Shown in pieces: positions 11,283 to 58,146 of a stretch of 64,000 bases of DNA. The DNA is from Planctomycetaceae bacterium (GTDB lineage: Bacteria > Planctomycetota > Phycisphaerae > SM23-33): assembly GCA_039680605.1 (NCBI GenBank), contig JBDKTA010000044.1:124001-188000 (forward strand). Reading direction: 5' to 3'. How positions within the stretch are numbered: position 1 is the first letter of the stretch; each line of letters opens with the position of its first letter. The position numbers and the translations under genes are program-made. The notes below the pieces were generated by a model that was not told where the DNA came from, made no database searches, and saw only the letters and a program-made list of their open reading frames with translations.

Positions 11283-11318
11283 GTTACGTCCACGAATGTC
11301 ACGAATGACACGAATGGG
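11281..11318 (+). repeat. CACGAATGN tandem triplet repeat, copy 1
   Basis: Three consecutive 9-mers of form CACGAATGN follow GAGTTACGTC, starting at the stop codon of the alpha-2-macroglobulin gene. An almost identical block sits at the stop codon of kdsB (50532-50570), differing by one inserted base in the lead-in. Confidence 0.8.
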
Positions 11319-11338
11319 AGAGTGATGATTTGGGAATT

Positions 11339-11392
11339 GTTAGCGGTCGGGCTTGCCCGACGCGGTTGTTTCCCTGACCTCAGGGAAACAAC
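11339..11392. repeat. GTTAGCGG element with two perfect hairpins, copy 1
   Basis: TCGGGC-TT-GCCCGA (11347-11360) is followed by a perfect 13-bp stem GTTGTTTCCCTGA / TCAGGGAAACAAC (11365-11392) with a two-base loop. The start and the GTTGTTTCCCTGA part recur at 49605-49643. It lies between convergent genes and could end transcription from either side, but no T-run follows. Confidence 0.7.
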
Positions 11393-49504: not shown

Positions 49505-49800
49505 AGGCTGGAATGATGGAATAATGGAATAATGGGTGGCATGGCGACACGCATTTTGTTTTTGGCGGGTCGTCATGAGGGAACGTGAAACGGCGCGTCG
49601 TTTTGTTAGCGGCGGAGCTTGCTCCGCGCGGTTGTTTCCCTGATCCGTAGGCTGATGTGCGCAGGCAGATCGCGCGGCAAAACGCGCGGGGCAAGCCCCG
49701 CCGCTAACGGGAAAACGCCGCCATCAATCCATCCATCCATCCATCCATCCATCCATTCATCCATTCCTTCTTCCGCCCGTTCCGCGTAGAATCTGCGTCC
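49505..49800. repeat. Repeat-filled intergenic region upstream of kdsB
   Basis: This 296-base gap holds no gene. A GTTAGCGGCGG arm (49605-49625) pairs with an inverted copy (49688-49708). Between them, GCGCGGTTGTTTCCCTGA matches the element at 11339-11392. Tandem CCAT/ATCC repeats fill about 49731-49768. A degenerate AATGATGG run lies just after the helicase stop. Confidence 0.75.
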
Positions 49801-50538
49801 ATGAACACCGCCATCGCCATCATTCCGGCGCGCTACGCCTCCACGCGCCTGCCGGGCAAGCCTCTGCTCGCCCAGACGGGCAAGATCCTCATCCAGCACG
49901 TCGTCGAGGCCGTCGGCCTGGCAAAGCGAATTGCGCGGATCGTCGTGGCTACGGATGACGATCGGATTCTTGCCGCCGTGCGCGGTTTCGGCGCCGAGGC
50001 CGTCATGACCAGCCCCGACTGCCCCAGCGGGACCGACCGCCTCGCCCAGGCCGCCCGGACGCTGAATCTGGGCGACGACCAGATCGTCATCAACGTTCAG
50101 GGCGACGAACCGGACATGCCGGCCGACTGCATCGACCGCCTGGTAGAACTGCTGGAGCAGTCAGACGCCCCGATGGCCACGTTGACAACGCCCATGACCG
50201 TCGCGGCGGCGGAAGATCCCAATCGCGTCAAGGCCGTGCTGGCTGGCGACGGGCGGGCGATGTATTTCTCGCGGGCAAAGATTCCCTTCGACCGTGACAA
50301 GAAAGGCGGCGTGAATTACCTGCTGCACCTGGGCATCTACGGATACCGCGTAGGGTTCCTCAAGCAGTTCGCCCAATTGGCTCCGACGCCGGCCGAGCAG
50401 GCGGAGAAACTCGAGCAGCTCCGTGCCCTCGAGCACGGGTTCGCGATCATTGCGGCCGTCGTCGACTACCACGGCAGCGGCATCGACACGCCGGAAGACT
50501 ACGCGGCGTTCGTGGCACGGGTTCGGGGAAAGAGTTGA
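49801..50538 (+). CDS. kdsB: 3-deoxy-manno-octulosonate cytidylyltransferase
   Basis: A 245-residue enzyme of standard length that activates Kdo with CTP to CMP-Kdo for lipopolysaccharide inner-core synthesis. The N-terminal nucleotide signature IIPARYASTRLPGKPL is intact, followed by INVQGDEP and the SRAKIPFDRD loop; LEQLRALEHG is the usual C-terminal motif. It is cytoplasmic and has no signal peptide. It is followed by pyrG, which makes its CTP substrate; a repeat-containing gap of 236 bases lies between them. Its presence supports a Kdo-containing outer membrane. Confidence 0.95.
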   Translation: MNTAIAIIPARYASTRLPGKPLLAQTGKILIQHVVEAVGLAKRIARIVVATDDDRILAAVRGFGAEAVMTSPDCPSGTDRLAQAARTLNLGDDQIVINVQGDEPDMPADCIDRLVELLEQSDAPMATLTTPMTVAAAEDPNRVKAVLAGDGRAMYFSRAKIPFDRDKKGGVNYLLHLGIYGYRVGFLKQFAQLAPTPAEQAEKLEQLRALEHGFAIIAAVVDYHGSGIDTPEDYAAFVARVRGKS

Positions 50539-50570
50539 CGTCCACGAATGTCACGAATGACACGAATGGG
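50532..50570 (+). repeat. CACGAATGN tandem triplet repeat, copy 2
   Basis: The same block as at 11281-11318: lead-in GAGTTGACGTC and three CACGAATGN units, overlapping the kdsB stop codon. The two copies differ by one base of insertion. Confidence 0.8.
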
Positions 50571-50586
50571 GGAAAGCAAGACGGGA

Positions 50587-50693
50587 AGAATGGACGGACG
50601 GAACAAGGAATAATGGAATAATGGAATGATGGAATATTGCTTGGTGGTTCGCTTCCATCCGTTCTTCCATCCTTCCAGTCTTCCATCATTCCG
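50587..50693. repeat. Degenerate GGAAT/GGAC simple repeats between kdsB and pyrG
   Basis: The plus-strand sequence runs from GAATGGACGGACGG through several AATGATGG/AATAATGG units into CCATCCGTTCTTCCATCC-type repeats. The two halves are partly self-complementary. No gene is visible in the 236-base gap; the pyrG promoter must lie within or beside the repeat. Confidence 0.6.
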
Positions 50694-50774
50694 TTTCTTT
50701 TTTCCCCATCGCGGACGTAACGTTTTTTTCCTGAGCCTTGCCTTGGCGGGCGCGCTGCTGTAAAGTCCGGTTCC

Positions 50775-52502
50775 ATGAGCGACGCCATGGATTTGCTGCG
50801 GTCTGTCAAGGATCGCACCGACGAAACGGAATTCTACACGCCTTTGCCCGACGGCTACCGGTTGGGCTCTACCAAGTACGTAGCCGTCTTTGGCACGGTC
50901 ATGAGCGGTCTGGGCAAGGGGATCTTCTCCTCCTCGCTGGCCAAGCTGCTCAAGGACAAGGGCCTGTCGGTCGCCCCGATCAAGCTGGAAGGCTACCTCA
51001 ATATCGACTCGGGCACGCTGAATCCGTATCGCCATGGCGAGGTCTTCGTGCTGGACGACGGCATGGAAACCGACATGGACCTGGGCACCTACGAGCGCAT
51101 GCTCGACCAGAACCTCACCCGCGCCAACTTCGCCACCAGCGGGCAGATTTTCCGGGCCGTGCTCGACAAGGAACGCGCCGGCAGCTATCTCGGTCGCGAC
51201 GTGCAGATGATCCCCCACGTCACCGGCGAGGTGAAGCTGCGCCTGCGGGAGCTGGCGCTGGCGAGCAAGGCTGACGTGATCTTCGTTGAAGTCGGCGGCA
51301 CCGTCGGCGATATCGAGAACGCGTTCTTCATCGAGGCCCTGCGCGAGCTGAGCTACGAGGAAGGCGAGGGCTCGGTGCTGTTCGTGGCCCTGACGTACGT
51401 GCTGAGCCCGCCGGCGCTGGGCGAGCAGAAGTCCAAGGCCGCCCAGTTGGGCATCAAGCGCCTGATGGAATACGGCATCCACCCCGACATCATCGCCTGC
51501 CGGGCCGAGCAGCCCGTCGTCGACAAGGTGCGCCAGAAGATTTCCGTCTACACTAACGTGCCGATGCGGCGCGTCTTCTCGATGCACGATCTCAAGAGCA
51601 TCTACCTGCTGCCCGAGACCATGCGCGAGGCGGGCATTGACAGCGAGGTGGTGCAGCTTCTGAGCCTGGGCGGAAAGGTCAACTCGATGGCCGATGCCCG
51701 GGCGGCCCAGAAGTGGCACGCGTTCTGTTCGGAGTTGGAGAACCCGCGCCACAAGGCCACCATCGGAATCACGGGCAAGTACACCGCCCTGCGCGACAGC
51801 TATGCCAGCATTCTCAAGGCCCTGGAGCATTCGGGCGTGGCCAACTCGGCCCAAATCGACATCAAGTGGATCGACACCACCGACATTACGGATGACAACG
51901 TCGCGGCCGCCCTGGCCGACGTCGACGGCATCATCGTTCCCGGCGGCTTCGGCGTGCGAGGCACCAGCGGCAAGATCGCCTGCGTGAAACACGTCCGCGA
52001 GAACCGCATACCGTACCTGGGCATCTGCCTGGGGTTCCAGATGGCCGTGATCGAATACGCCCGCAACGTCTGCGGCCTGGATGGGGCCGACAGTTCCGAG
52101 ATCGACCCCCAGTGCAAGCACGCGGTGATCGACATCCTGCCCGACCAGAAGAAGATCGAAGGCCTCGGCGGCAACATGCGCCTGGGCGGCCAGGACGTCG
52201 AGATCGCCCCCGGCACCATCGCCGCCGGGCTCTACGACAACGCCAAACGCATCCGCCAGCGATTCCGCCACCGCTACGAAGTCGATCCCAAGTACATCGA
52301 TCAGATCGAGGCTGCCGGGCTCAAGTTTACCGGCCGACACGGTCTGCACCCGATCATGCAGATCCTCGAACTGCCCCGCGACGTCCACCCGTACTTCGTG
52401 GCCGCCCAGTTCCACCCCGAGCTGACCAGCCGCCCCCTGCACCCCCAGCCGATGTTCGTAGGTCTGGTGGCGGCCGCACTGCAGCGGCGGCAGAAGGCAT
52501 AG
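50775..52502 (+). CDS. pyrG: CTP synthase
   Basis: A 575-residue enzyme converting UTP to CTP with glutamine. The amidoligase domain (about 33-300) begins with KYVAVFGTVMSGLGKGIFSSS and carries IKLEGYLNIDSGT and EVGGTVGDIE. The class I glutaminase domain follows, with the nucleophile Cys418 in YLGICLGFQMAV and the C-terminal His-x-Glu (FHPEL). It is about 25-40 residues longer than usual, mostly at the N-terminus (residues 1-32). GTVMSGLGKG replaces the more common GGVVSSLGKG, with the P-loop glycines intact. It should act as a cytoplasmic tetramer. Confidence 0.95.
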   Translation: MSDAMDLLRSVKDRTDETEFYTPLPDGYRLGSTKYVAVFGTVMSGLGKGIFSSSLAKLLKDKGLSVAPIKLEGYLNIDSGTLNPYRHGEVFVLDDGMETDMDLGTYERMLDQNLTRANFATSGQIFRAVLDKERAGSYLGRDVQMIPHVTGEVKLRLRELALASKADVIFVEVGGTVGDIENAFFIEALRELSYEEGEGSVLFVALTYVLSPPALGEQKSKAAQLGIKRLMEYGIHPDIIACRAEQPVVDKVRQKISVYTNVPMRRVFSMHDLKSIYLLPETMREAGIDSEVVQLLSLGGKVNSMADARAAQKWHAFCSELENPRHKATIGITGKYTALRDSYASILKALEHSGVANSAQIDIKWIDTTDITDDNVAAALADVDGIIVPGGFGVRGTSGKIACVKHVRENRIPYLGICLGFQMAVIEYARNVCGLDGADSSEIDPQCKHAVIDILPDQKKIEGLGGNMRLGGQDVEIAPGTIAAGLYDNAKRIRQRFRHRYEVDPKYIDQIEAAGLKFTGRHGLHPIMQILELPRDVHPYFVAAQFHPELTSRPLHPQPMFVGLVAAALQRRQKA

Positions 52503-52505
52503 CGC

Positions 52506-52597
52506 CTACAGCCCGCACATCGTGCGCAGGTGCTCGACCATGTACTTGAAGTTCTCCCAGCTCGCGTCCAGCGGGATGAGAGGGTCAATGAGGTCGC
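52506..52597 (-). pseudogene. 3' remnant of a second URO-D-like gene
   Basis: Thirty codons on the minus strand encode a sequence ending in WENFKYMVEHLRTMCGL, the same last 17 residues as the intact URO-D-like gene at 54440-55519. Plus-strand bases 52507-52559 match 54441-54493 at 52 of 53 positions, and similarity fades over the next 27 bases. No upstream part of the gene remains: the ankyrin-repeat gene ends at the break. Confidence 0.85.
52507..52559. repeat. Direct repeat flanking the ankyrin gene, copy 1
   Basis: Fifty-three bases, starting TACAGCCCGCACATCG, repeated in the same orientation at 54441-54493 with one mismatch. The two copies are 1934 bases apart and bracket the ankyrin-repeat gene. 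Confidence 0.9.
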
Positions 52598-54369
52598 GAC
52601 GGTGCTTTTTGTGGCATCGCCGATTGAAGAAGCGACTTGATCTCTGCGGTGGCCCCAGAGGCATAGTCCATTGCAGTCTTGCCCTCTGGATTTTTGATGG
52701 TTGGATCGGCCCCGGCTGCCAGAAGCACGCGAACAAGATCGACGTTCTTGGAAGCGACGGCCTGCTGGAGAGGGGTATATCCGGCCTGTCGACTGGGATC
52801 ACCTTTGGTTTGATAGATGGCCCGCGCCAGTTCCGGAGTGCGGATGCCGTAGGCCGTGAACCACTCCTCATGCCCATAGTCGGCCAGCGGCGATGGAGGG
52901 GCGCCTTTCTCAAGAAGCATGCGGACGATCGGCATATTCTGGCGAGCAACGGCCAAGTGGAGCGCCGTCAAGCCAAAGCGGTTCTGGGTACCGGGCTTGG
53001 CCCCGCCGCTGAGCAGGGTCTGGATCATCTGAACATCCTCTTCCCTGACGGCCCGCATCAGCGGAGTCAGGCAGAACAGAAAGGCGTCCTTTTCCGCAGG
53101 CGCGCCGCGCTTCAGCAGATCGGCCGCTAATGAATAATTCTTCTGCGCTACGGCGAGGTGGAGCAGCGTTGCGCCGTATCGAGCCTGACAATTTGTCGAG
53201 GCGCCCTTTTCGAGCAGGAACCGAGTTGCGCCAGGCTGTTTGTGCCAGACGGCCCAGAAGATCGGCGGGGCACAGTAGAGCCCATCAGACTCGTTGAGGA
53301 GGGATGGCTTGCGTTTCAGCAAGTCCGCCAGCACGTTGGTCTTTCCTAACGCCGCCGCTGAGTGAACATCGATGGGAACATGATGGTCGAGAAGCACTCG
53401 CTGCACGAGCGGGAACTTCCACACAATGGCAGCCATCAGGGGCGTCAGTCCCTTGTTGGGGCGACCAGCCAGATCCGCACCGCGAATTGTGGGGGCGGCG
53501 CCGGCTTCCAGCAGCACCTTCACCACCTCAGGATTTCCGCGCAAGGCCGCCGTGAGCAGTGGCGTTCTCTTGAAAGGCCCGGCATTGCTGTTGATCTCTG
53601 CGCCTTTGCTGCAAAGCACTTTGACGGTCTGGGCATAGTCACCGGCACTGGGTGTGGATCTTAGAATCTTCAGCGTTTCCCTGTCTGGAAACATCGCTTC
53701 GTCATCTGCCATGTCAGTCTCGTCCTCGGGCACGAAGATATCAACTTTCCATTCCGTCCGTGCGCAAGCTAGCGCCAGGCAGTGCAGAGGGGTCAATCCG
53801 ACTGGATCGGCGGAACTGGGATCGGCTCCTTTGGCCAAGAAATCTTCAACCACTGCATAGGAGCCCGTTTGTGCAGCAAGGTGCAGCAGCGAACGGCCGC
53901 GAAAAGGCCTTTCCTCAAGGCTGGCGCCGTGCGCCGCCAAGGCTCGCAGCGCATTGGCTTTGTTGTGGATCAGGGCCATTCCAGCCGGTGTGACCGCCCA
54001 TGCCGCCAACTTCTTATATTCCTCTTTCGTAAGATTGGAATCGTCGGCAGGAATGTCCGAGCGGTCGCTGATGGTCGTAGCGAACTTGAGAACGACAGCA
54101 ATCATCTTCTCATTGTCGGTTTCGATGGCCGCAAGAAGCGGCTTACGACCGCATTTCCGGCAGGGATACCCATAGAAATCCCCGTAGCGCCTGGGATCTT
54201 CAAGTGTGCCTTCCCGGATCGCCGCACAGAGCGGCGACATGCAAGGAAGCGTCGGTACAGCAACGTTGTCACGATGCACCGCCTGCTTCGACTCCTGCGG
54301 GCGCATCTGCGGAGCGACGCCGCAGCCGGATGCGACTGCCAGGGCAATGATCGCGAAATTCTTATTCAT
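52585..54369 (-). CDS. Ankyrin-repeat lipoprotein
   Basis: A 594-residue protein. The N-terminus ends a signal peptide with AVASGC, so Cys16 is the probable lipidation site. About ten ankyrin repeats follow (about 75-580), with motifs such as GRSLLHLAAQTGSYAVVEDF, GLTPLHCLAL, GLTALHLAVARQNMPIVRML and GYTPLQQAVASKNVDLVRVL. A paired-Cys stretch (CRKCG) lies near residue 70. It probably sits at the outer membrane or periplasm and binds protein partners. The sequence appears less GC-rich at third positions than its neighbours, which together with the flanking repeats suggests acquisition. No enzymatic domain is seen. The gene starts a few bases after a GGGGTAAGG Shine-Dalgarno-like site. Confidence 0.82.
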   Translation of the reverse strand: MNKNFAIIALAVASGCGVAPQMRPQESKQAVHRDNVAVPTLPCMSPLCAAIREGTLEDPRRYGDFYGYPCRKCGRKPLLAAIETDNEKMIAVVLKFATTISDRSDIPADDSNLTKEEYKKLAAWAVTPAGMALIHNKANALRALAAHGASLEERPFRGRSLLHLAAQTGSYAVVEDFLAKGADPSSADPVGLTPLHCLALACARTEWKVDIFVPEDETDMADDEAMFPDRETLKILRSTPSAGDYAQTVKVLCSKGAEINSNAGPFKRTPLLTAALRGNPEVVKVLLEAGAAPTIRGADLAGRPNKGLTPLMAAIVWKFPLVQRVLLDHHVPIDVHSAAALGKTNVLADLLKRKPSLLNESDGLYCAPPIFWAVWHKQPGATRFLLEKGASTNCQARYGATLLHLAVAQKNYSLAADLLKRGAPAEKDAFLFCLTPLMRAVREEDVQMIQTLLSGGAKPGTQNRFGLTALHLAVARQNMPIVRMLLEKGAPPSPLADYGHEEWFTAYGIRTPELARAIYQTKGDPSRQAGYTPLQQAVASKNVDLVRVLLAAGADPTIKNPEGKTAMDYASGATAEIKSLLQSAMPQKAPSRPH

Positions 54370-54439
54370 GCCTTACCCCAATCGACCAGCCGTACGGCTG
54401 GGAGCGATGCGCCCGCTGCCAACTAAGAGCGGCCTGAGA

Positions 54440-55519
54440 CTACAGTCCGCACATCGTGCGCAGGTGCTCGACCATGTACTTGAAGTTCTCCCACTTGGCG
54501 TCCGGCGGGATCAGGTGGTCGAAGCCGACGATGTACCCGCCTGCGGCCAGCATGCGGCTGGCGCGGTCGAGCTCGACATGCACTTCCTTCTTGCCCTTGG
54601 CCAGGGCGTTCTTGTCCAGCCCGCCCAGGATGCCCAGCTTGGGATAGAGCCTGCGGTACTCGCAGATGTCGTTGCCGGCCTGCACTTCGAATGGGAAGAA
54701 CGCGTTGAGACCGTGCCGCATCATCAGCGGCACCAGCTCCTTCACGTCGCCGTCGGAGTCGACCGAGACGATCGCCACGCCGCGGCGCTTCGCGAAGGCC
54801 GCGATGCGGTCGTAGTGCGGCATCATGAACTCCTCGGTCATCTTCATCGAGATCAGCGAGCCCTGCTTGCCCGACATGTCTTCCCAGATGTGGATATGGT
54901 CGATCTGGATGTGCTCGGCCGCGGCTTCGTACATCGCCAACCAGAGGTCCACGTACGTCTTCATGATGTCATGCACCAGGTCGGGCATGTCGTAGAAGGC
55001 GATCAGCAGCTCCTCGGCGCCCATCATGTCGCGGGCAGTGCCGAAGACGCCCCAGCCGGGGTTGCCGATCTGAATGGGCAGGTCCTTCGTGGCCGCGTCT
55101 TTCGCCCAGGCGGCCACGCTGGCGGTGCGCAGGGCGATCTGCGGCTGGAGGCGCTCGGCCTTGTACTGGTTCCAGTCGTCCCAATTGCGCACGGGGTGGG
55201 CGACCCAGTCGGGCATGGACATGCCGTCGCGGCGATTGCGCGTCGTGATGCCTCGCCAGTCGATAGCCGTGATGAACTCGTCGGTCTCCGAGATCACCTT
55301 GTACTCGAAGTGCGGAAAGGGCCCGTACTCGACGGGGATGCCATGGAAGAACGGTTCGAAGCCGAAATACTCGAAGACATTCAGATCGGCGATGCCGGAC
55401 TCTTTCTTCCAGCGATCGACCGTCTGCCCCCAGGGCCAGAACCCCAGCCAGCACGGAAATGGCGCCCGATCGGTCTTCTCGCACAGCAGCGTCTTGATGA
55501 TGCGTTCGCGGTGGGTCAT
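54440..55519 (-). CDS. Uroporphyrinogen decarboxylase-like (methyltransferase-type) protein
   Basis: A 359-residue member of the URO-D/MtaA-like superfamily, complete from THRERIIKTLLCEKTDRAPF to the C-terminal WENFKYMVEHLRTMCGL. Barrel motifs include IQIGNPGWGVFG, IDHIHIWEDMSGKQG and NAFFPFEVQAGNDI, then GILGGLDKNALAKG. Unlike true HemE it lacks the N-terminal RQAGR motif, so a role in haem synthesis is unlikely. Planctomycete members are often assigned to methyl transfer from small substrates, but no substrate can be named. GAGGAG lies seven bases upstream of the ATG. Its 3' end exists a second time at 52506-52597. Confidence 0.82.
   Translation of the reverse strand: MTHRERIIKTLLCEKTDRAPFPCWLGFWPWGQTVDRWKKESGIADLNVFEYFGFEPFFHGIPVEYGPFPHFEYKVISETDEFITAIDWRGITTRNRRDGMSMPDWVAHPVRNWDDWNQYKAERLQPQIALRTASVAAWAKDAATKDLPIQIGNPGWGVFGTARDMMGAEELLIAFYDMPDLVHDIMKTYVDLWLAMYEAAAEHIQIDHIHIWEDMSGKQGSLISMKMTEEFMMPHYDRIAAFAKRRGVAIVSVDSDGDVKELVPLMMRHGLNAFFPFEVQAGNDICEYRRLYPKLGILGGLDKNALAKGKKEVHVELDRASRMLAAGGYIVGFDHLIPPDAKWENFKYMVEHLRTMCGL
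54441..54493. repeat. Direct repeat flanking the ankyrin gene, copy 2
   Basis: The copy inside the 3' end of the intact URO-D-like gene. It matches 52507-52559 except for one base. Confidence 0.9.
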
Positions 55520-55618
55520 GGTCGCTCCTCTATGGCGTCAAGGCGACGGCCTTGGCCGGCCGGGGAAGATAGCAGATGCCCATGTCGCAGTCAAAGGGCA
55601 GATAGCAGGGAAGGGGGT

Positions 55619-56737
55619 TCAGGAGATCGGCGCGGACAAAGCTGGACGTTTTCGGCGTCGCCGGGCTCGCCTGTCCAGGGCCTCGCGGGCATAGGCGACC
55701 AGTTCGGCGGCCCGGCAGGGGGCGGTATGGCGTTCCAACACTCGCTGCCGGGCGCGGGCGGCCAGTCGCCGCCGGTCGGTCTCGCTGGTGGTGCGGAGGT
55801 GTTCGACCACGTCGTTGCTGCGCCGGGCGACCAGCAGCTCTTCGCCGGGGACAAAGAAGTCCTCCAGGCCGGGCCAATAGTCGCTGATGACCGCGGTCCC
55901 GCAGGCGGCGGCCTCGAACAACCGCACCGAGGGGCTCCAACCGGCGCGGCGCATCTGGCGGCGGGTGATGTTGAGGGCGTATCGCTGACGGTTGTAGAAC
56001 GCCGCGTGCTTGTCGGGCGAGAGGTGCTCGATACGCTGGACGTTGCCGGGCCAGCGGATCTGCGGCGGGTACTGAGGCCCGGCGACGACGAATCGCCCCT
56101 GGTCCCACGCCCGTGCCGGTCGGCAGAGCAGTCGCTCCAGCGCCGGTTGGCGGTCGAGGCTGTACGTGCCGAGGTACGCCAGGTCCCATCGCGGTCGGCA
56201 GGGACGCGGGCGGTAGAGGGTTTCGTCGACGCAGCAATAGAGCGGCCGCGCCGCGGGGCTGCCCCAGTGCTGTTCCAGTCGCGTCAGAGTCGGTCCGCCG
56301 GTGAAGGAGAGGTACAGGTCGTAGCGGGGGATCTGCCGCGGCGAGAGGTATTCGCACCGGTCGCCGGCCAGCAGGTCCAGCGTCACGGGGGTGTCGAGAT
56401 CGTAAAACGCCGTCGCGCCTCGGGCGGTGCGCAAGACCCATTGGCCCACCGAGGCGCCGCGGGGCACGTAGGAGCCGACGATCGCCAGGTCGCTGTCAGC
56501 GAGTTCCGCGGCGAACCGGTCGCGCAGATCGTCCAGGCTGCGGTAGAGTTGCGTGCGCCCGAAGGGCGGATTCGGCATGTCGCGATTGGCGGCGTACCAG
56601 GGCACGTCGCGCTCGAGGAAGAGCACGTCGTGCCCCTCGGCCGCCAGGCAACGCATCAGACCGCGAAAGTTCGTGGCATGCCCGTTGCCCCAGGAACTGG
56701 TGACCGACAGACCCAGGATCGTGATCTTGAGCTTCAT
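55619..56737 (-). CDS. CgeB-like glycosyltransferase (GT1-type, PF13524-like) A
   Basis: A 372-residue cytoplasmic glycosyltransferase with a GT-B fold. The N-terminal domain begins KITILGLSVTSSWGNGHATN. The C-terminal nucleotide-sugar domain has AGWSPSVRLFEAAACGTAVI followed by SDYWPGLEDFFVPGEELLVA, typical of the Glyco_trans_1_2/CgeB group. It is the last gene of the polysaccharide operon and its ATG overlaps the stop of ugd (ATGA). It resembles the proteins at 59148 and 60245, so the operon probably adds several sugars with related enzymes. The linkage is unknown. The C-terminus is basic and rich in Arg. Confidence 0.82.
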   Translation of the reverse strand: MKLKITILGLSVTSSWGNGHATNFRGLMRCLAAEGHDVLFLERDVPWYAANRDMPNPPFGRTQLYRSLDDLRDRFAAELADSDLAIVGSYVPRGASVGQWVLRTARGATAFYDLDTPVTLDLLAGDRCEYLSPRQIPRYDLYLSFTGGPTLTRLEQHWGSPAARPLYCCVDETLYRPRPCRPRWDLAYLGTYSLDRQPALERLLCRPARAWDQGRFVVAGPQYPPQIRWPGNVQRIEHLSPDKHAAFYNRQRYALNITRRQMRRAGWSPSVRLFEAAACGTAVISDYWPGLEDFFVPGEELLVARRSNDVVEHLRTTSETDRRRLAARARQRVLERHTAPCRAAELVAYAREALDRRARRRRKRPALSAPIS

Positions 56738-58146
56738 GCCGGGGCGCCTTTGTCGCTGGAGGTCGCAGTGGCCGCCGCGCGTGTGCGTGCCGGGGCGGGT
56801 TTCTCCTGCCGCCGCCGCGGGGCCCGTCCGTTGCCCTGGCGGGGCGGTCGTCCGATCGAGTGGTACTCGATCCCCTCGGCGGCGACGCATGCGGGATCGA
56901 ACATGTTGCGTCCGTCGAAGATGATCGGCGTCCGCAGGTGTCGGCGGAGCAGGGCGAAATCGGGTTTGAGGAACTCCTGCCATTCGGTGCAGATGACCAG
57001 GGCGTCGGCGCGCGTGACGACTTCGTAGAGGTTGTCGGCGAAGAGCATCCGGGGTTCATCGCCCATGGCGGCCTTGGCGTTGGCCTCGGCGACGGGGTCG
57101 TAGCATTGCACATGCGCTCCGGCGCGCAGGAGCATGCGGGCGGTCTGCAGCGCGGGGGCCTGTCGCACGTCGTCGGTCTGAGGTTTGAAGGCCAGCCCCC
57201 ACATCGCCAGGCGTTTTCCGCGGAGATTGCGTCCCATGCGGGCGAAGATGATCTCGGCCAGCACGCTTTTCTGGCGTTCATTGCGGCGGTGAACGCTGGT
57301 GAGGATTTCGGCCTTGGCCCCGGCGGCGCGGGCGACCTGGATCAGGGCCTGGACGTCCTTGGGAAAGCAACTGCCCCCGTACCCGATACCGGGCTTGAGG
57401 AACTCGCGCCCGATTCGGTGGTCGCGCCCCATACCCTCGCACACGTCGCCGACGTCCACGCCGGTGTGCGAGCAGATGTCGGCGATCTCGTTGATGTAGC
57501 TGATGCGCGTCGCCAGGAACGCGTTGGAAGCGTACTTGACCATCTCCGCCGCCGGGCGCGACAGGGTCAGGATCGCCTCGCCGGGCACCAGCGTGCGGTA
57601 AAGCCTGCGCAGGACCGCGGCCACGCGCGGTTTGTCGCAGCCGATCACCACGCGGTCGGGGTGCAGGAAGTCTTCGACGGCCGCTCCCTCGCGCAGAAAC
57701 TCGGGGTTCGACACGACCTCCATCTTCACCTTCGTGAGGCGTTCGATCTGCTGCTGCACGGCCAGCCCGGTCCCGACGGGCACGGTGGACTTGATGACCA
57801 CGATCTTGCTCGAGCGGGCGCAGGCGGCGATATCGGCGGCGGCCTGCATCACCGCCGACAGGTCCGCCTGCCCGTTCTCACGCGGCGGCGTGCCTACCGC
57901 CATGAAGACGACGCGCCCGTGGCGGATGGCGGCCGCCGAATCGTCGGTGAACGACAGGCAGCCGCTATCGAGTCCGGCGCGGAGCAGTTCGGCCAGACCC
58001 GGTTCGTAGAAACAGCTTCGGGCCTGCCGCAGCATGCGGATCTTGTCGCTGTCGATGTCGAGCCCGACGACGCGATGTCCGGCCTTGGCGAAACACGCCG
58101 CCGCTACCAGCCCCACGTACCCGGTGCCGATCACGGTGATCTTCAT
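56734..58146 (-). CDS. ugd: UDP-glucose 6-dehydrogenase
   Basis: A 470-residue NAD-dependent enzyme oxidising UDP-glucose to UDP-glucuronate. The NAD fold GTGYVG is at 7-12, KSTVPVGTG near 119, and catalytic Cys260 lies in GYGGSCFPKD. The C-terminal UDP-binding domain contains LAMWGLAFKPQTDDVRQAPA. A tail of about 40 residues rich in Arg, Pro and Ala (about 430-470) is extra to the family. I use the ATG at 58146, which overlaps the decarboxylase stop (ATGA); a longer open frame adds unrelated sequence. The product feeds the decarboxylase encoded by the upstream gene. Confidence 0.94.
   Translation of the reverse strand: MKITVIGTGYVGLVAAACFAKAGHRVVGLDIDSDKIRMLRQARSCFYEPGLAELLRAGLDSGCLSFTDDSAAAIRHGRVVFMAVGTPPRENGQADLSAVMQAAADIAACARSSKIVVIKSTVPVGTGLAVQQQIERLTKVKMEVVSNPEFLREGAAVEDFLHPDRVVIGCDKPRVAAVLRRLYRTLVPGEAILTLSRPAAEMVKYASNAFLATRISYINEIADICSHTGVDVGDVCEGMGRDHRIGREFLKPGIGYGGSCFPKDVQALIQVARAAGAKAEILTSVHRRNERQKSVLAEIIFARMGRNLRGKRLAMWGLAFKPQTDDVRQAPALQTARMLLRAGAHVQCYDPVAEANAKAAMGDEPRMLFADNLYEVVTRADALVICTEWQEFLKPDFALLRRHLRTPIIFDGRNMFDPACVAAEGIEYHSIGRPPRQGNGRAPRRRQEKPAPARTRAAATATSSDKGAPA

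Follow-up and report, generated by a model that had tools for sequence, protein, structure and literature searches.

A partial-duplication scar around a probably acquired ankyrin-repeat gene next to a URO-D-like gene

Introduction

How does the end of a gene come to stand apart from the gene itself, on the far side of an unrelated reading frame? In the window – the whole stretch of 64,000 nucleotides that was analysed – a gene for an ankyrin-repeat protein lies between an intact URO-D-like gene and a second copy of that gene's 3′ end. We asked what the two copies reveal of their common history, whether the gene between them is foreign, and which process could have left such an arrangement behind.

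Results

Read along the minus strand, the locus comprises the URO-D-like gene (55519 to 54440), a spacer of 70 bp, the ankyrin gene (54369 to 52585), the tail copy (52586 to 52506) and then the end of pyrG, a convergent gene for CTP synthase (50775–52502, plus strand; Pfam CTP_synth_N and GATase), whose stop codon is 3 bp from the tail copy. Both minus-strand frames are open – 359 aa for the URO-D-like gene (54440–55519) and 594 aa for the ankyrin gene (52585–54369) – and Pfam confirmed the identities first proposed for them. The spacer (54370–54439, minus strand), which runs from the URO-D-like stop to the ankyrin start, contains a perfect 16-bp palindrome, CCAGCCGTACGGCTGG (54386–54401), possibly an operator or a hairpin.

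The original prediction had recognised the near-identical part of a repeated URO-D-like 3′ end. Sequence comparison shows that the direct repeat extends over 81 nt (52506–52586 and 54440–54520, both on the minus strand), with copies 90% identical at a spacing of 1934; the orphan copy corresponds to the last 27 codons, stop included, of the intact gene. Chance is excluded by the strength of the match (E = 4e-25), and a search of the whole genome (5.23 Mb) with the 81-bp sequence found two places only, both at this locus. The ends of the repeat are sharp, flanking identity being at background on either side. One boundary falls exactly at the URO-D-like stop codon, where the orphan copy begins; the other is straddled by the TGA stop of the ankyrin gene (52585–52587), one base outside the repeat and two inside (T|GA). 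That the ankyrin stop lies where the second copy breaks off, as predicted, is thus correct to the base, and to judge from this overlap the repeat junction may have supplied the stop codon.

Identity is unevenly distributed within the repeat. The final 54 nt (52506–52559, minus strand, against 54440–54493) carry a single mismatch, a synonymous GGA/GGG difference, and include the longest exact stretch, of 47 nt; the adjoining 27 nt (to 52586 and 54520) carry seven, an identity of ~74%. The step from 53/54 to 20/27 rests on eight mismatches: Fisher's test gave p = 0.0016 for a split chosen post hoc, and permutation of the best split gave p = 0.013. Near identity had been taken to imply a recent event or gene conversion, a claim that stands for the last 54 bp and not for the adjoining 27 bp, which at 74% identity suggest either that the copies are older and their tail has been homogenised, or that the short copy derives from an allele or paralogue that had diverged. 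The step speaks mildly against a single clean duplication with uniform drift thereafter.

Comparison with homologues of the URO-D-like protein in other genomes (30–68% identical) places these differences in context. The final residues of the protein vary freely, the conserved part being a D-H-L-I-P-P-D motif upstream of the tail end, and a conserved C-terminus could be ruled out as the cause of the tail identity: every homologue examined differs over its last 15 residues. Because the two tails are nearly identical precisely where the family is variable, we infer that the two are of recent common descent or have been homogenised. The 27 codons of the short copy are in register with the functional gene, truncated and no longer under constraint. 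Two of its changes, H335P and P339L (numbering of the 359-residue protein), fall at positions invariant or nearly so among homologues, and for this reason the short copy reads as a decaying, non-functional fragment, DNA no longer selected for protein; the prediction that only a tail was left is in this respect borne out. At position 342 the intact gene encodes K and the short copy S, which is what homologues most often have there, a hint that the short copy stems from an older allele or paralogue and not from the present gene plus drift. Maintenance of the repeat by an RNA structure or a terminator was ruled out: shuffled sequences fold as well as the copy does (z −0.01), and the minus strand showed no terminator-like site.

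The ankyrin gene is compositionally foreign to its surroundings. The comparison of codon usage that the original prediction had proposed marks it as an outlier, with a GC3 of 0.66 against 0.78–0.91 in eight neighbouring genes (0.91 in the URO-D-like gene) and a codon-usage distance of 0.22 against 0.08–0.14. Its product is an array of ankyrin repeats (Pfam); within the genomes of its family the closest matches reach 28–31% identity over parts of the protein. Searches of 397 class genomes (E ≤ 1e-30) and 392 phylum genomes (E ≤ 1e-40) found no close homologue; viral contigs contained no close ankyrin homologue and no close relatives of the unit, and plasmids matched through remote ankyrin proteins only (26–31% identical). 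The gene thus combines the atypical composition and patchy distribution typical of horizontally acquired genes, and on the strength of its odd composition and the lack of a close homologue in the genomes searched we regard it as probably acquired cargo. Since ankyrin genes evolve fast, neither the odd codon use nor the lack of close homologues amounts to proof of transfer. The N-terminus, MNKNFAIIALAVASGC, makes a lipoprotein plausible, although the residue at −3 differs from the usual Leu. Matches to NCBIfam effector models lie far below the cut-offs (98.9 against 600 bits, for example) and reflect the ankyrin repeat only.

The URO-D-like protein matches PF01208 at 61.4 bits (curated cut-off 23.9) and belongs to the URO-D / MtaA-CmuA methyltransferase superfamily; it falls under the curated cut-offs of every NCBIfam model matched. 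Matches to URO-D relatives number 26 in the host genome, and near relatives of this gene are rare, being present (E 1e-100) in 5/397 genomes of the class, the present one included. The closest orthologues found are 68% identical, then 59% or less, and all stand in other contexts.

The surroundings of pyrG were compared across the family. In relatives kdsB often precedes pyrG, as it does here. Among family genomes with a readable locus none has a URO-D relative near pyrG, within ~1.5 kb or less downstream, and the present arrangement is, within the data at hand, lineage-specific. Several family genomes (L036, L041, L044, L049, L051) carry behind pyrG a short conserved ORF with a KIIVDDDWK motif. 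This ORF is absent from that position at the present locus, so the present lineage has apparently undergone a rearrangement downstream of pyrG.

Several general sources of such a structure were considered. The whole 1.93-kb unit is single-copy in its own genome, and a multicopy element was ruled out as its source. Insertion of a transposon involves a transposase, terminal inverted repeats and a short target duplication (2–15 bp); here there is no transposase match, the repeat measures 81 bp, and none of the 25 longest inverted-repeat pairs in 50000–58000 bounds the unit. Duplicated gene tails as a common habit of this genome were likewise set aside: of the other close direct repeats in a 364-kb sample, those inspected, a part of the total and each viewed briefly, did not resemble duplicated gene tails (the direct repeats concerned lie on C44 near 50, 54, 73/79 kb and near its end, and on C9).

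Discussion

A critical issue is the order of events by which one gene came to be enclosed between two copies of its neighbour's tail. The account we prefer, in which belief and doubt are for us about evenly matched, is that the ankyrin gene was gained, in this lineage specifically, behind the URO-D-like 3′ end, through recombination assisted by homology that left a partial duplication. What follows is our proposal as to donor and polarity, as well as to the route of recombination and the cause of the 54-bp identity. The starting state would have been a resident URO-D-like gene facing pyrG, and the incoming DNA an ankyrin gene beside a slightly diverged URO-D-like tail. Recombination of the incoming tail with the resident one, whether by a single crossover or by homologous exchange at one end paired with illegitimate joining at the other, would have produced one complete URO-D-like gene upstream and a displaced tail orphaned past the ankyrin gene, beside pyrG. 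The last 54 bp might have been kept identical by a recent crossover point or by gene conversion; a crossover between the resident tail and a diverged one would be expected to give just such a step in identity inside the repeat.

A precedent for acquisition at this kind of position is the swapping of effectors at the 3′ end of vgrG, in which genes are acquired by homology-facilitated illegitimate recombination (PMC11751169). In both cases the newcomer is a foreign gene placed immediately after the 3′ end of a resident one, which acts as homology anchor; the present locus differs in retaining a copy of the anchor tail beyond the cargo, and its route is one that we propose from the sequence. It is most improbable that single-gene cassettes dock repeatedly at the URO-D-like 3′ end and are swapped over the tail repeat without a recombinase.

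Acquisition is not the only process that could end a match at a stop codon. An old tandem paralogue would likewise leave a repeat confined to coding sequence, and it is conceivable, if doubtful, that the locus once held two tandem URO-D-like genes, the pyrG-proximal of which was reduced to its last 27 codons, perhaps on arrival of the ankyrin gene, gene conversion keeping the last 54 bp alike. Homology that stops exactly at the stop codon, as between paralogues with diverged flanks, would fit this history, as would the mosaic identity across the repeat and the 26 URO-D-relative matches in the genome; yet in the 1.93-kb unit the tail is the sole significant tblastn match and nothing else of a second gene body is visible, no tandem allele has been seen, and the conversion is an extra step. 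The short copy does constitute a partial gene duplication, or pseudogene fragment: it resembles the products of partial tandem duplication in being a short, in-register, decaying 3′ fragment of the neighbouring gene, and departs from them in that an unrelated, compositionally foreign gene separates the copies. The literature on gene-tail duplication provided analogues only.

The geometry of the locus – an intact gene on one side, a displaced 3′ end on the other and an exact core of 47 bp – also recalls site-specific integration into the URO-D-like 3′ end, in which the element would have supplied a new tail and pushed the original one aside, and from which cargo and att repeats would be all that remains of a degenerate element. 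Decayed integrative elements that keep cargo, part of an integrase and a pair of direct repeats are on record, as are elements inside protein-coding genes, and ICE/AICE repeats share with ours a length of tens of bases, the inclusion of part of the target gene, an intact gene and cargo in between (PMC9513070). The present repeat includes the target 3′ end (81 bp, 47 exact), whereas the 1.93-kb unit has no integrase, recombinase or other mobility gene: it consists of the ankyrin ORF and overlapping shorter frames, with Pfam matches to ankyrin only. The unit differs further in being a single cargo gene of single occurrence, with a repeat diverged across a third of its length, and with nothing alike in viral contigs and only remote ankyrin proteins on plasmids we judge such an origin improbable.

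Less probable still is the fill-in of a staggered double-strand break, in which an ankyrin fragment was joined at an 81-nt stagger and the duplicated target later drifted. The insert does begin directly after the URO-D-like stop, and the repeat completes the ankyrin stop as if the fragment had been cut within the stop region; but drift should scatter the eight differences evenly, yet seven fall in 27 bp, and a boundary at the stop codon would be a coincidence. That unrelated contigs were joined at a short repeat is very improbable: the assembly is a draft of 72 contigs and the repeat is exact over 47 bp, but ordinary short reads are longer than the repeat, each copy has unique flanks of its own, and the locus lies deep within a 226-kb contig.

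The partial-duplication scar around a probably acquired single gene is, in our assessment, genuine. It is well delimited, the junction being readable to the base, and it serves as a worked example of known mechanisms, familiar in kind and involving no new system. The 47-bp exact repeat predicts that the change is reversible by deletion, recombination across it making loss of the cargo possible.

The wider family of the resident gene offers an indication of function. Relatives of the URO-D-like gene adjoin a family 4 glycoside hydrolase (GH4) in three genomes, and in a fourth a GH106-like gene lies nearby (genomes L068, L067, L097 and L065), a neighbourhood that suggests a role in glycan breakdown for this uncharacterised URO-D/MtaA-like clade; at the present locus the gene has no direct GH4 or GH106-like neighbour. 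An FG-GAP protein is also present beside relatives of the gene. The closest relative (68%) is on a contig of L065 labelled as an Akkermansia muciniphila MAG; either mislabelling or transfer of the URO-D-like gene may explain this.

Elsewhere in the window, two dispersed repeat pairs, 11286–11321 with 50538–50573 and 11337–11377 with 49603–49643, have copies 97% and 85% identical respectively. The pairs seem to be intergenic and lie near one another at either site; they have the look of a small repeat family in the host genome.
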